Shown: piece by piece, positions 18,284-25,266 of the stretch
How the letters are laid out: each line of letters starts with the position of its first letter
How positions within the stretch are numbered: the first letter of the stretch is position 1
Source: Alphaproteobacteria bacterium
Lineage (GTDB): Bacteria > Pseudomonadota > Alphaproteobacteria > Thalassobaculales > Thalassobaculaceae
Assembly (NCBI GenBank): GCA_013203465.1
Contig: JABMNR010000100.1
Span: 1 to 32,339 of the forward strand
Length of the DNA: 32,339 bases
Direction: 5' to 3'
Made by a program: the position numbers and the translations under genes
Notes under the pieces: model-generated
The model's database searches: none
The model's input: only the letters and a program-made list of their open reading frames with translations
Told to the model about the DNA's origin: nothing

Positions 18284-19309
18284 CTAAATATACTGAGCTT
18301 GTCGTCCCGCAATCACCAGGCGTCGGTCCTCGTCAGTAGGATGTATGATCGAGCCCCTCGCATAAGCGTTGTTCTTATTTTGCCGGCTCCCGAAAAAACC
18401 ACTATTTTTTATCAAACTAAATTGGTCAACTTCCCAGAAAAGAACATGGTCATCTGGTTGATAGGGATAAATAAGTGGGTTTGAAAATAAAACTTCTCCG
18501 TTTGACTGCTCAGCCTTACCATCTCTATTAACATTAAAATGTAAAGATGATGGTCTCGATGTTCTGTATATTTGTTCAAAATAATACTTTACAGTAAAAT
18601 TATCCATCTCTGCAAATGAGTTAATATTTATACTTAAGTCGATACTCTGGCGCGGTAGTTCCATCAATTCATCGGGCGTTAGAAATCGAAATTTTTGTTG
18701 GCAACCGACCCCAAATCCTATGTTGTCAATTCCAAAATGATGAGCGATCCAGTAGGCTGAAAACGGCAACATTTCGGGGAGATCTACGAAAGTAAACGAC
18801 CGTATGCACCCTGTCCAAATTAAACAGGTGGCCATGTAGCCGGAGCCAGCGCCGATTTCCAAAGCATCGCACGGGCTGTGCGATCGGCGGCTCACCATCG
18901 AATTTGTAATACGAGAATACAACCAAGCCCTCGCAGCTGTTGTTCCGTAGTCTATAAGGTTTCGAGACCTCAAAAACTCGCGAAATTCTTCCAATACGCC
19001 TAACGAATGTAACGATAAATAGTCTGTCTGCGACGCAGTTAGAGATGTGTAGGCAGCAATGCCGCGGTCAAAGATTGCCTGGAGGGAATCTGAAGATAGG
19101 TCTGTTAAGTACGATGAATTACTTTCATCCTTAGGAACGGGCGCGGCAATGCTCAAGTAGGCCCCACTCTCTATTCGCCGCATTGTCCCTTTGATGTATG
19201 AGTTTTTAGGAACGGAGTTTTCGATAATTCTACGCCAACCGCCGGTTTTCGTCGCGTATTTGTCGGCATGGGTTTGTTCCATAAAACGTCGAATTTTATC
19301 AGGAAACAT
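18284..19309 (-). CDS. Putative sugar O-methyltransferase (SAM-dependent), AT-rich island
   Basis: About 341 aa. A central class I SAM-binding motif, ALEIGAGSGYMATC, is followed by FTFVDLPEMLPFSAYW (acidic residue for SAM ribose) and the late NINSFAEMDNFTVKYYFEQI. This combination is that of the putative sugar O-methyltransferase family found in polysaccharide and O-antigen loci. Codon use is strongly AT-biased against its GC-rich surroundings, so recent transfer is likely. The start is uncertain: ATG 19309 is used here, TTG 19327 is in frame, and the frame is open to a stop at 19349-19351, so the N-terminus may be truncated. No other sugar genes accompany it, and whether it is expressed is unknown. 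Confidence 0.75.
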   Translation of the reverse strand: MFPDKIRRFMEQTHADKYATKTGGWRRIIENSVPKNSYIKGTMRRIESGAYLSIAAPVPKDESNSSYLTDLSSDSLQAIFDRGIAAYTSLTASQTDYLSLHSLGVLEEFREFLRSRNLIDYGTTAARAWLYSRITNSMVSRRSHSPCDALEIGAGSGYMATCLIWTGCIRSFTFVDLPEMLPFSAYWIAHHFGIDNIGFGVGCQQKFRFLTPDELMELPRQSIDLSININSFAEMDNFTVKYYFEQIYRTSRPSSLHFNVNRDGKAEQSNGEVLFSNPLIYPYQPDDHVLFWEVDQFSLIKNSGFFGSRQNKNNAYARGSIIHPTDEDRRLVIAGRQAQYI

Positions 19310-19838
19310 ATCAACCAAAATCTCCAAGGCGACTATAAATCGAGTTATTCAGCCGGGATTGCCCATATGGCTTCTTCCAACTTTATCGGCGAGAGGAATA
19401 CCGTGCAGCGGCAATACCGTGCAGCGGCCCAGGGGCTTTACAGCCTTAAGCTCAGCTTCCTGCCGCCGCCTCGCGAAGCGCCGTCTCACGGGTAACCGTG
19501 ATGAAACTGTTGAGGCTGTTCTGAACCGGGATTTCCCATTTTAGCCCCGTTTTGGCGCTTGATTTTGCCTCCGAATGGCTCGATGTACAAGCCAATCGGC
19601 ATCGGGCGGTTAAAAGTTCGCCACTCGGACCGAAAGAACGCCGATATAAGGCGTGGCCCACAGAAAGTGGCCCGCTCGTTGATGTTACGGACGCACCTGC
19701 CCTGTCGCCGCGTCGCATGAACAGTCTTTCTCTCGTCATGTGGGAAGTGGCCTCGGTCTGAGCCGATCGATGCGGCGCAGGATGTCGGCGAGGGCGTGAA
19801 GCTGGAGGTGGCCCGCTCATGGTACCGGAATATACCCC
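19310..19838. other. Gene-free stretch of about 530 bp with scar-like sequence
   Basis: No convincing gene. Composition moves from AT-rich (methyltransferase side) back to GC-rich. It contains a 16-bp tandem duplication at 19397-19428. A 26-codon minus-strand open stretch near 19740-19816 reads LQLHALADILRRIDRLRPRP between stops and could be the tail of a lost gene. The motif GAGCGGGCCAC occurs twice on the minus strand (near 19680 and 19815). ORFs of 65-122 codons here lack recognisable motifs and start signals. I interpret it as debris from insertion and deletion, without a firm identification. Confidence 0.45.
19397..19428. repeat. 16-bp perfect tandem duplication
   Basis: The unit AATACCGTGCAGCGGC occurs twice in direct succession (19397-19412 and 19413-19428). 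It lies in the gene-free stretch upstream of the AT-rich methyltransferase gene. It is probably a replication-slippage product; no function is visible. Confidence 0.85.
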
Positions 19839-21915: not shown

Positions 21916-22656
21916 ATGCTTCTGCCGCCGCTCACCGAAGGCCGCCTGATCAAGCGCTACAAGCGCTTCCTCGCCGATGTCGATCTGTCGGGCGGTCGGG
22001 GGGACGGCGAGACCGTCACCGCCCATTGCCCGAACCCCGGCGCGATGACCGGCCTCGCCACCCCGGGGATGCGGGTGTGGCTGTCGCGCTCCGACAACCC
22101 GAAACGCAAGCTGGCCCACACCTTGGAGCTGGTGGAGGTGTCGTCGGAGGTCGGCGGCGAGCTGGTCGGCCTGCACACCGGCCGGCCGAACGCCATCGTC
22201 GCCGAGGCGGTGGCGGCGGGGGTGATCCCGGAGCTGGCGGGCTACGCCAACCTGCGCCGCGAGGTGCGTTACGGGGTGAACAGCCGCATCGACCTGCTGC
22301 TGGAAGACCCCGGCGGCACCCGCCCGCCCTGCTACGTCGAGGTCAAGAACGTGCACCTGTTCCGCCCGGACGGCCCGAATCCCGGGGCGGCCGAGTTTCC
22401 CGATTCGGTCACCGCGCGGGGGGCGAAGCATCTGGACGAGCTGGCGGCGATGGTGCGGGACGGGCACCGGGCGGTGATGCTGTTCTGCATCCAGCGCGGC
22501 GACGGCGACCGCCTCGCCCTGGCCCGCGACATCGACCCCGGCTACGGCGCCGCCTTCGACCGGGCGCGGGCGGTGGGGGTGGAAATGCTGGCCTGGGACT
22601 GCGCCGTGACGCGCGAGGCGATTACACTGCGGCGGACGGTCGAGGTGGCGGGGTGA
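21916..22656 (+). CDS. sfsA: SfsA family protein (sugar fermentation stimulation / predicted nuclease)
   Basis: A 246-aa SfsA homologue: [13 protein letters not shown] (10-22), [15 protein letters not shown] (37-51), an RIDLLLED strand and [11 protein letters not shown] with the acidic-Glu-Lys signature of PD-(D/E)XK nucleases, then [16 protein letters not shown] and [10 protein letters not shown]. Length matches the family (about 235-245 aa). The E. coli protein binds DNA and affects maltose genes; the nuclease activity is a fold-based prediction. ATG 21916 gives the family N-terminus; longer in-frame readings cross the divergent promoter. In alphaproteobacteria sfsA is often followed directly by map and radC; here a foreign gene intervenes. 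Confidence 0.93.
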
Positions 22657-22857
22657 GAAACCGCTCATAAACTACCGATCTCGGATAAGCAGCATCACTA
22701 AAGGCTAATTCGTTGGGCAAGGGAAATGAGAAATGTTAAATTACGAGCTGCATGTTCAAAATACCACAGAGGCATGCAAAACAATGGAAATTGAGTTCTG
22801 CATTGTCATTTGGGTGGTAGTTAAAAAAAATAGCTTGATTGTCAACGGGTTGGTTAA
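22657..22857. promoter_or_regulatory. AT-rich leader of the foreign AlbA_2 gene
   Basis: GC content falls sharply within a few bases of the sfsA stop (22654-22656) and stays low to the ATG at 22858. The region presumably arrived with the gene and holds its promoter. Runs such as AAAAAAAATAGCTTGATTG are present, but I could not choose a single -35/-10 pair. No integrase, tRNA or repeat is visible at this junction. Confidence 0.35.
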
Positions 22858-24255
22858 ATGATAGAAAAAAAAGAGATGTCATCAGAAGAGTCGCAAAAAG
22901 TAATTGACCTAGAAGAAGGACATTATCTTGACGTTAAACGTATAGATATTAAGCCTTCGAAACTGACAGAAACAATTTCTGCTTTTGCTAACACCTCTGG
23001 AGGTGAAATATTTCTAGGTATTCGCGAAGAAAATAAAAATGGAGAGAAATTACGTAGCTGGCTTGGCTTCGAGGACATGGAAGCCGCAAACGCTCATATA
23101 CAAGTTCTCGATCAGATAGGGGGATTAGGAAATCATTATCGTGCTATTTTCCTATCATGTTCAGAAAATATTGGCCATGTTCTGCATCTCACTATATTAA
23201 AAACCAAGGATATTTTAAAGGCGAGCAATGATCATCCTTACATTCGGCGAAACGCACAAAATATAAAAATAAAAACTCAAGAAGAGATTCAGAGATTAAA
23301 ATTAGATAAAGGAATAGTCACATTTGAAGACGAAACACTGAATATTGATAAAATAATAATTAGCAATTCTAACAGCATAATTGAATTTTGTCTAAATGTA
23401 ACGCCGAGTTCCGAACCGGAACCATGGCTGAGATCACAGTTTTTAATCAACAATGAAAACCCAACCGTAGCTGGAGTTCTTTTATTTTCTGATGAACCGC
23501 AGGCTGCTCTACCCAAACGATCCGCTATAAAAATTTATCGGTATAAATCAAGAGAAGACGAAGGAACAAGAGACACTTTAGCTTTCCCTCCGATCACAAT
23601 AGAAGGATCACTATATTCGTTAATTTATAAATCTGTAGCAGAAACAAAAAAAATAGTAGAAGACATAAAAAAATTAGGTACAGATGGCCTTGAATCTATA
23701 TCTTACCCAGATGAAACTCTACATGAAGTAGTAACCAATGCCGTTCTTCACCGAGATTATAGTATTGCTTCTGACATTCATATAAGAATATATGACAATC
23801 GTATAGAAGTTGAGAGTCCCGGAAAACTTCCGGGCCATGTAACTGTTAGCAATATACTTCATGAGCAATCAGCAAGAAATCCAAAAATAGTCAGAATCAT
23901 CAATAAATTTCCTGACCCACCAAATAAAGATGTTGGAGAGGGTTTAAACACAGCATTTGAAGCAATGAAAAAACTAAGACTCCGAGAACCACAGATTCAA
24001 GAACATGATAATTCTCTTGTCGTTCATATTGCCCACACTCCTCTCGCTTCTCCTGAAGATACCGTTATGAAATACCTAGAAAGCCACGAAACTATTACAA
24101 ATGGAGTAGGCCGTGTACTTACCGGAATCAGATCGGAAAACACTATGAAAGATGTCTTTCTTCGCCTAAACAAACGTCAGCTGCTGGAAAGAGTACCTGG
24201 CTTACGTGGCAATGCTGCGGCTTGGCGTCGCTATTCGAGTACAGCAAACGATTAG
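22858..24255 (+). CDS. AlbA_2 (Schlafen-type) DNA-binding domain protein with GHKL-type ATPase domain
   Basis: A 465-aa protein. Residues about 18-140 form an AlbA_2/Schlafen domain: LEEGHYLDVKRID, AFANTSGGEIFLGI (42-55), HPYIRRNAQ (126-134). The C-terminal half has a divergent GHKL ATP-binding domain: YPDETLHEVVTNAVLHRDYS (283-302, N-box), IYDNRIEVESPGKLPG (311-326, G1 box) and VGEGLNTAFEAMKK (359-372). Such proteins act as DNA-binding regulators or occur in defence and mobile islands. It is strikingly AT-rich, with Ile/Lys/Asn-biased codons, between the GC-rich sfsA and map genes. ATG 22858 is used; ATG 22876, behind an AAAGAG, is an alternative. It is apparently monocistronic. Function cannot be set from sequence. 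Confidence 0.88.
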   Translation: MIEKKEMSSEESQKVIDLEEGHYLDVKRIDIKPSKLTETISAFANTSGGEIFLGIREENKNGEKLRSWLGFEDMEAANAHIQVLDQIGGLGNHYRAIFLSCSENIGHVLHLTILKTKDILKASNDHPYIRRNAQNIKIKTQEEIQRLKLDKGIVTFEDETLNIDKIIISNSNSIIEFCLNVTPSSEPEPWLRSQFLINNENPTVAGVLLFSDEPQAALPKRSAIKIYRYKSREDEGTRDTLAFPPITIEGSLYSLIYKSVAETKKIVEDIKKLGTDGLESISYPDETLHEVVTNAVLHRDYSIASDIHIRIYDNRIEVESPGKLPGHVTVSNILHEQSARNPKIVRIINKFPDPPNKDVGEGLNTAFEAMKKLRLREPQIQEHDNSLVVHIAHTPLASPEDTVMKYLESHETITNGVGRVLTGIRSENTMKDVFLRLNKRQLLERVPGLRGNAAAWRRYSSTAND

Positions 24256-24277
24256 GGTGCAATGTAAGAACTGAATT

Positions 24278-24318
24278 TTCGGTTATAGTTTTTAAACTCA
24301 TTTATTCGAGTAACCGAA
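24278..24318. repeat. Inverted repeat downstream of the AlbA_2 gene
   Basis: Arms TTCGGTTA (24278-24285) and TAACCGAA (24311-24318) are perfectly complementary around a 25-nt loop. The loop contains its own palindrome AGTTTTTAAACT (24287-24298). It starts 23 bp after the stop codon of the AT-rich gene, so it may act as a transcription terminator in either direction, or be a relic of the element that brought the gene. There is no U-run immediately after it, so a classical terminator is not certain. Confidence 0.45.
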
Positions 24319-24465
24319 CATGACACCAAAAAACGCTCGACCAAAATAAAACGAAACTACCTGATTATACTCTTTGGTACGTTGCCAACTAACATCAACA
24401 CCCCACCCTTGACCACAGCGCTAGGTCTGACCAGATTGCGGGGTTATCACTGTTAGGGTCGCACC

Positions 24466-25266
24466 ATGAACCAGCTCGCCGAAGCGCGGCAGATCGTCCG
24501 GCACCGGGCGGAGGATTTCGACGGCATGCGCCGGGCCGGGCGGCTGGCCGCCGAGGTGCTCGACATGATCACCGAGCACGTGGTGCCCGGCGTGACCACC
24601 GAGGAGCTCGACCGGCGCTGCCACGACATGACCCTGGCGCACGGCGCGGTGCCGGCACCGCTCGGCTACAAGGGCTATCCCAAGTCGATCTGCACCTCGA
24701 TCAACCACGTGGTCTGTCACGGCATTCCCGGCGTCCGCCGGCTGGCCGAGGGCGAAATCCTCAACATCGATGTCACCGTGGTGCTGGACGGCTGGCACGG
24801 CGACAGCAGCCGGATGTATCTGGTCGGCGACAAGGTGGCGGTGAAGGCGCGGCGGCTGGTCGACGTCACCTACGAGGCGATGATGCGCGGCATCGCGGCG
24901 GTGCGGCCGGGGGTGCATCTGGGTGCGGTCGGCCACGCCATCCAGAGCTACGCCGAGGCCGAGCGGTTCTCGGTGGTGCGGGATTTCTGCGGCCACGGCC
25001 TGGGCCGGACGTTCCACGCCCCGCCCAGCGTGCTGCACTACGGCAAGCCCACGGACGGGCCGGTGCTGGAGCCGGGGATGTTCTTCACCATCGAGCCGAT
25101 GATCAACGCCGGCAAGTACCCGGTGAAGATCCTGGAGGACGGCTGGACGGCGGTGACCCGCGACCGCTCGCTGTCGGCGCAGTTCGAGCATTCGGTCGGC
25201 GTCACCGAGGACGGGGTGGAGATCTTCACCCTGTCGCCCAAGGGCTACACCAAGCCGCCGTACTGA
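24466..25266 (+). CDS. map: Methionine aminopeptidase, type I
   Basis: A 266-aa pita-bread metalloprotease that removes the initiator methionine from nascent proteins. All five metal ligands are present: Asp102 and Asp113 (NIDVTVVLDGWHGDSSRM), His177 (CGHGLGRTFH), Glu210 (FTIEPMI) and Glu241 (AQFEHSV), plus His85 in CHGIPG. There is no zinc-finger or SH3-like N-terminal extension, as usual for bacteria. It lies upstream of a small secreted gene and radC. The stop codon is embedded in the first unit of a 17-bp tandem repeat. An essential housekeeping gene in bacteria with a single copy. Confidence 0.97.
   Translation: MNQLAEARQIVRHRAEDFDGMRRAGRLAAEVLDMITEHVVPGVTTEELDRRCHDMTLAHGAVPAPLGYKGYPKSICTSINHVVCHGIPGVRRLAEGEILNIDVTVVLDGWHGDSSRMYLVGDKVAVKARRLVDVTYEAMMRGIAAVRPGVHLGAVGHAIQSYAEAERFSVVRDFCGHGLGRTFHAPPSVLHYGKPTDGPVLEPGMFFTIEPMINAGKYPVKILEDGWTAVTRDRSLSAQFEHSVGVTEDGVEIFTLSPKGYTKPPY

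Follow-up and report, generated by a model that had tools for sequence, protein, structure and literature searches.

A horizontally acquired, stand-alone gene for a putative Schlafen-type RNase with GHKL-like and winged-helix domains between sfsA and map in an alphaproteobacterium

According to PMC12839542 (citing 10.1101/2025.07.24.666596), a Schlafen RNase with a C-terminal minimal histidine kinase and a wHTH has been reported with BREX. Long-B Argonautes carry an N-terminal Schlafen AlbA_2 domain (PMC6299218). In rat SLFN13, mutation of the three acids E205, E210 and D248 abolishes or diminishes tRNA cleavage (PMC5862951). The lysine at the position of K212 in rat SLFN13 is present in the active proteins SLFN13 and SLFN12 and absent from SLFN5 and mSlfn2, neither of which shows cleavage, and SLFN5 is inactive even though it retains the acidic triad (PMC8789055). 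The gene described here lies in a window of 32,339 nucleotides (the whole stretch of DNA that was analysed), and its product is a stand-alone member of the already reported Schlafen/GHKL-like/wHTH kind. By their description in PMC12839542, the BREX-linked Schlafen proteins have the same domain order (Schlafen, GHKL-like, winged helix) and a link to phage defence; in contrast to them, the window gene stands alone without BREX genes. Positions 52–433 of the PADLOC pAgo profile PDLC02394 match residues 31–390 of the window protein, which, unlike the long-B Argonautes, has no Argonaute part, and PADLOC holds no model for a stand-alone member. The uncharacterised protein DIP2311 of Corynebacterium diphtheriae (3LMM) resembles the window protein in consisting of AlbA_2 and GHKL-like domains over most of its length. 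The two share about 18% identity and superpose in VIA with Z 22.4 and an rmsd of 14.1 over 333 residues, a value so high that the domains of DIP2311 must be arranged differently.

The features of the locus, in window coordinates, are as follows.

21916..22656 (+), sfsA, the left flank (TIGR00230).
22657..24407 (no strand), foreign AT-rich insert; its right edge is accurate to a few bases, its left edge inferred.
22657..22857 (+), the insert's AT-rich leader.
22803–22831 (+), weak promoter-like site TTGTCA-17-AAAAAT, 9/12, a consensus match only.
22858..24255 (+), Schlafen AlbA_2/GHKL-like/winged-helix protein of 465 aa (ORF, Pfam, AlphaFold2 model).
22915..23271 (+), SLFN_AlbA_2, residues 20–138, with putative catalytic residues E20, D25, E57 and K27 (Pfam, conservation, fold matches).
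23770..24027 (+), HATPase_c_4 (GHKL-like), residues 305–390; the fold starts from about residue 220, with N-box E290/N294 (Pfam, model).
24046..24243 (+), C-terminal winged helix-turn-helix, residues 397–462 (model and structural matches).
24408..24438 (+), map promoter-like element CTTGACC-N18-AGATTG, host DNA, kept in relatives.
24466..25266 (+), map (type I methionyl aminopeptidase), the right flank (TIGR00500).

The AT-rich gene is a foreign insertion of about 1.75 kb, at about 22657–24407, between genes that NCBIfam models identify as sfsA on one side and map and radC on the other. The window has about 70% GC overall; across the insert GC falls from 70–75% to 36–43%, and GC3 is 26% in the intact, ATG-initiated ORF versus 93–95% in sfsA and map. 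Four genomes of the same family have an sfsA-map gap of about 70 bp with no intervening gene; the gene is thus not present at this locus in all relatives, a finding that would have counted against an insertion. The sequence CTTGACC-N18-AGATTG just 5′ of map is common to the window and its closest same-family relatives (map identity 83–87%). The window holds a single occurrence where 0 are expected, no shuffle contains one, and by sequence the element looks like the map promoter. Since this element is intact at 24408–24438, the insert ends at about 24407, and the right boundary of 24420 given in an earlier note on this DNA lies about 13 bp too far right, in host DNA. Three findings bear out the foreign origin by insertion that the same note proposed: the site is empty in relatives, the composition departs from that of the neighbours, and the map element is retained. 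Neither the stop codon of sfsA nor the promoter-like element of map was damaged. The insert does not have the marks of an autonomous mobile element, namely its own recombinase, terminal repeats or a target duplication: no integrase or other recombinase appears in its ORF list, as the note had said of integrases, and a search of its ends found neither terminal repeats nor a target duplication. No tRNA was found with the insert, and the genome carries a single copy of the AlbA_2-GHKL gene.

In another genus of the same family (G002, G013 and G022; L057–L059), the sfsA-map gap is filled by another gene, about 1.3 kb long and with host-like GC, whose translation reads as a putative FAD-dependent oxidoreductase. 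The gap has therefore taken up genes more than once and is a repeated entry point. A second AT-rich islet, 18284–19327 (−), lies 3.5 kb from the insert (44% GC and GC3 43% in surroundings of 70% GC). Its single gene is for a putative sugar O-methyltransferase (TIGR04371, NanM-like, 65.9 bits), and the islet is probably another single-gene acquisition. At the window's left end, positions 1–44 (−) belong to a tRNA that is cut off by the window boundary (Rfam RF00005).

Two Pfam domains are found in the 465-aa protein, for which NCBIfam has no model: SLFN_AlbA_2 (PF04326) at residues 20–138, with E 7e-10 and 39.9 bits against a gathering cut-off of 25.3, and HATPase_c_4 (PF13749) at residues 305–390, with E 3e-18 and 66 bits, above the curated cut-off. 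The AlbA_2 and GHKL assignments of the earlier note therefore hold; what it lacked were the winged helix, the nuclease signature and the AT-richness of the whole family. An AlphaFold2 model built from a 100-sequence alignment (mean pLDDT 91.6) comprises an AlbA_2 lobe, a GHKL-like domain and a winged helix. In VIA-align, residues 3–123 match the C-lobes of SLFN11, SLFN13, SLFN14 and SLFN5 and the tRNase domain of SAMD9 (Z about 9–9.7), residues 220–396 match GHKL kinases and SpoIIAB (Z about 9), and residues 397–462 match winged helices (Z about 9). The description of PF13749 ("RecG C-terminal") and the label of phrog_12156 ("DNA helicase") would make the protein a RecG-like DNA helicase, but Pfam finds no helicase domain anywhere in it and the fold is GHKL, not RecA-like. 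We regard a helicase as extremely improbable, and the name as an inherited, misleading annotation contradicted by domain content and fold.

Conservation in the AlbA_2 lobe follows the pattern of active Schlafen RNases. E20 and K27 are invariant in 113/113 full-length sequences, position 25 always holds D or E, and residue 57 is acidic in 110/113, giving a near-invariant active-type signature, E-x4-D/E-x-K ... D/E (E20-D25-K27-E57). Position 1 of PF04326 corresponds to E20 in the window protein and to E206 in SLFN14, and through this shared register E20, D25, K27 and E57 are the counterparts of E205, E210, K212 and D248 in rat SLFN13. When HMMER itself aligns the protein to SLFN14, the stretch around E20 is shifted by three residues, and hhalign against the SLFN14 segment aligned the FAN-x-GG block alone; the E20 register, which rests on the PF04326 model and the motif, is strong but not final. 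With the register set by motif and HMM, the catalytic carboxylate triad and lysine of a Schlafen RNase are present. The function, which the earlier note had called unknown, is narrowed by this active-type carboxylate/lysine signature to that of a putative Schlafen-type RNase. Animal SLFN11/12/13/14 share with the window protein the AlbA_2 C-lobe fold and the signature, there E-x4-E-x-K ... D. They differ from it in having two lobes where it has one, and in having a linker and helicase part where it has the GHKL and winged-helix domains. The model and structural matches place one AlbA_2 lobe in each chain, and the two-lobed, pseudo-dimeric core of animal Schlafens is absent. On the model, the protein is not an animal-type Schlafen itself; that it works like one is tenable, since a homodimer could replace the two-lobed core.

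The remaining domains are less canonical. The central domain has Bergerat-fold matches and an invariant N-box (E290/N294), as expected of GHKL proteins. Its G1 motif lacks the adenine-contacting Asp: S320-P-G322 replaces D-x-G, with S in 111/113 sequences. Because of this replacement ATP binding is uncertain, and we describe the domain as a GHKL-like fold with putative ATPase activity, for which nucleotide gating is plausible from the sequence. The best fold matches of the C-terminus (residues 397–462) include Zalpha domains, with ordinary winged helices scoring equally. Zalpha domains are recognised by an N and a Y of the recognition helix and a W of the wing. In a hand alignment to this signature only the W is kept (W456, a position that is either W or Y across the family), and a Zalpha reading of the C-terminus draws no support from the fold scores, given that ordinary winged helices match equally well.

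Single-sequence searches at E 1e-30 found the gene in 4/385 genomes of the class and 5/398 of the phylum, the window's own included, and a single-sequence search of genome contigs gave no match. An eight-sequence profile recovered at least 568 related stretches in genome contigs, of which the best 80 were kept (47–62% identity). It also recovered 38 viral contigs, and in 29 of these the match is near full-length at 34% identity or more. Full-length homologues overall are 34–62% identical and occur in viral contigs and in many phyla, among them Pseudomonadota, Acidobacteriota, Actinomycetota, Bacteroidota, Bacillota, Chloroflexota and Cyanobacteriota. The homologue tree requires 26 changes of phylum versus a minimum of 13, which suggests transfer across phyla, although paralogy and mis-binned contigs can inflate the figure of 26. 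The sporadic distribution within class and phylum would also suit a foreign gene that was passively fixed and has no present function, but the 465-codon frame is intact and every invariant family residue is kept, making this a very unlikely reading. A more distant homologue at L082:8831–10411 (G445) is spread over two frames, of 170 and 355 aa, and represents a decayed or divided copy.

Low GC is shared across the family. Over 106 loci, the window included, the gene lies on average 12 GC points under its flanks. It is more than 5 points under them in 91% of loci versus 5% of controls, which were 400 other large ORFs from the same loci with a mean 3.4 points above their flanks. With AT-richness in 91% of loci, it is a family trait and not the mark of one recent donor. 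Across the 106 loci the low GC of homologues recurs in hosts of very different composition (for example L083–L191). One other alphaproteobacterial family has homologues in two genera (L056 and L080, in G179 and G671) that both adjoin the 3′ end of uvrA. The two proteins are far apart in sequence despite the common neighbour, and either a shared locus or repeated insertion may account for the placement.

Neighbourhoods offer no recurrent partner. In 22/111 loci a gene on the same strand lies close upstream, in 10/110 one lies close downstream, and a scan of 146 neighbours gave no family with more than four members. A toxin-antitoxin partner or operon is rejected for want of a conserved neighbour in about 110 loci, and for the same reason the gene is likely to act on its own or together with host factors; its earlier description as a single-gene, self-sufficient module is well supported. 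The neighbourhoods bear equally on the idea of a transcriptional regulator, in which the AlbA_2 domain and winged helix would bind DNA, the GHKL domain would sense a ligand and RNA would go uncut. Database records do label such proteins as transcriptional regulators or as proteins with a DNA-binding or RNA-binding domain, and a winged helix is present, but a pure DNA binder would have no need of an invariant acidic triad and lysine, and no conserved neighbour offers itself as a target. We consider a regulator unlikely, if the most credible of the competing explanations.

The neighbours that do recur are phage genes. In six viral loci (L183, L184, L186, L188, L189 and L190) the gene stands in the order gpA-type replication protein, gene, portal; in L189 PHROGs identifies the genes on both sides, in L184 and L188 the gene on one side, and the rest were assigned by clustering with these. 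In P2-like phages the gpA-gpQ interval, home of old/tin, is a hotspot for anti-phage systems (Rousset et al., PMC9122126). Family members in six P2-like prophages thus occupy a known defence hotspot, the gpA-portal slot of the old/tin cargo; the window copy, in contrast, is chromosomal and outside any phage. Other copies adjoin CI-like prophage repressors, type I R-M genes or TIR genes, and some are on plasmids; the PADLOC neighbour tallies have no background rate and are not a measure of enrichment. Many homologues stand alone amid housekeeping genes, outside defence islands. The suggestion that such genes often lie in defence or mobile regions accordingly holds for the P2-like hotspot, the repressor, R-M and TIR neighbours and the plasmids, but not for the many copies amid housekeeping genes. 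A phage-borne gene that helps the phage itself, whether through counter-defence, through replication or by controlling superinfection, and that stayed on in this chromosome could account for the 29 near full-length viral-contig matches and the CI-like repressor neighbours. We judge this improbable: far more matches are in ordinary genome contigs, some amid housekeeping genes, the slot in P2 takes accessory defence genes, not genes of the phage core (PMC9122126), and no phage remnant is seen around the window copy.

We favour, with reasonable though not high confidence, a horizontally acquired, stand-alone bacterial Schlafen: a self-sufficient RNase, inferred to be active, that would sense infection and act by abortive infection. 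From location and homology, the gene probably serves phage defence; proteins of this type are not mentioned in the main text of PMC9519451, a functional-selection study. The AlbA_2 lobe would be a Mg/Mn-dependent RNase, most likely acting on tRNA, and would be expected to dimerize, having one lobe where animal Schlafens have two. The GHKL-like domain, through nucleotide binding, and the winged helix, through binding of nucleic acid or a partner, would keep the RNase inactive. An infection signal would release it, translation would stop and the phage cycle would be aborted. More tentatively, and with a likelihood well below even, the gene could encode an immune sensor and effector in one protein, in which an altered GHKL domain and a winged helix gate a Schlafen tRNase; it would then form a minimal defence cargo that crosses phyla and is AT-rich nearly everywhere. 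A GHKL domain without the adenine-contacting Asp may read a nucleotide other than ATP.

Two libraries miss or misname this gene, PADLOC reaching it through pAgo alone and PHROGs calling it "DNA helicase". Our observations suggest that defence cargo may insert singly beside essential genes, outside islands, and so be missed by island-based screens. Schlafens are antiviral factors in animals, and a compact bacterial relative, borne as a one-gene cargo in prophages and in chromosomes from many phyla, would provide a simple system for studying how a Schlafen RNase is switched; a stand-alone Schlafen would also allow the role of the GHKL domain in immunity to be examined.
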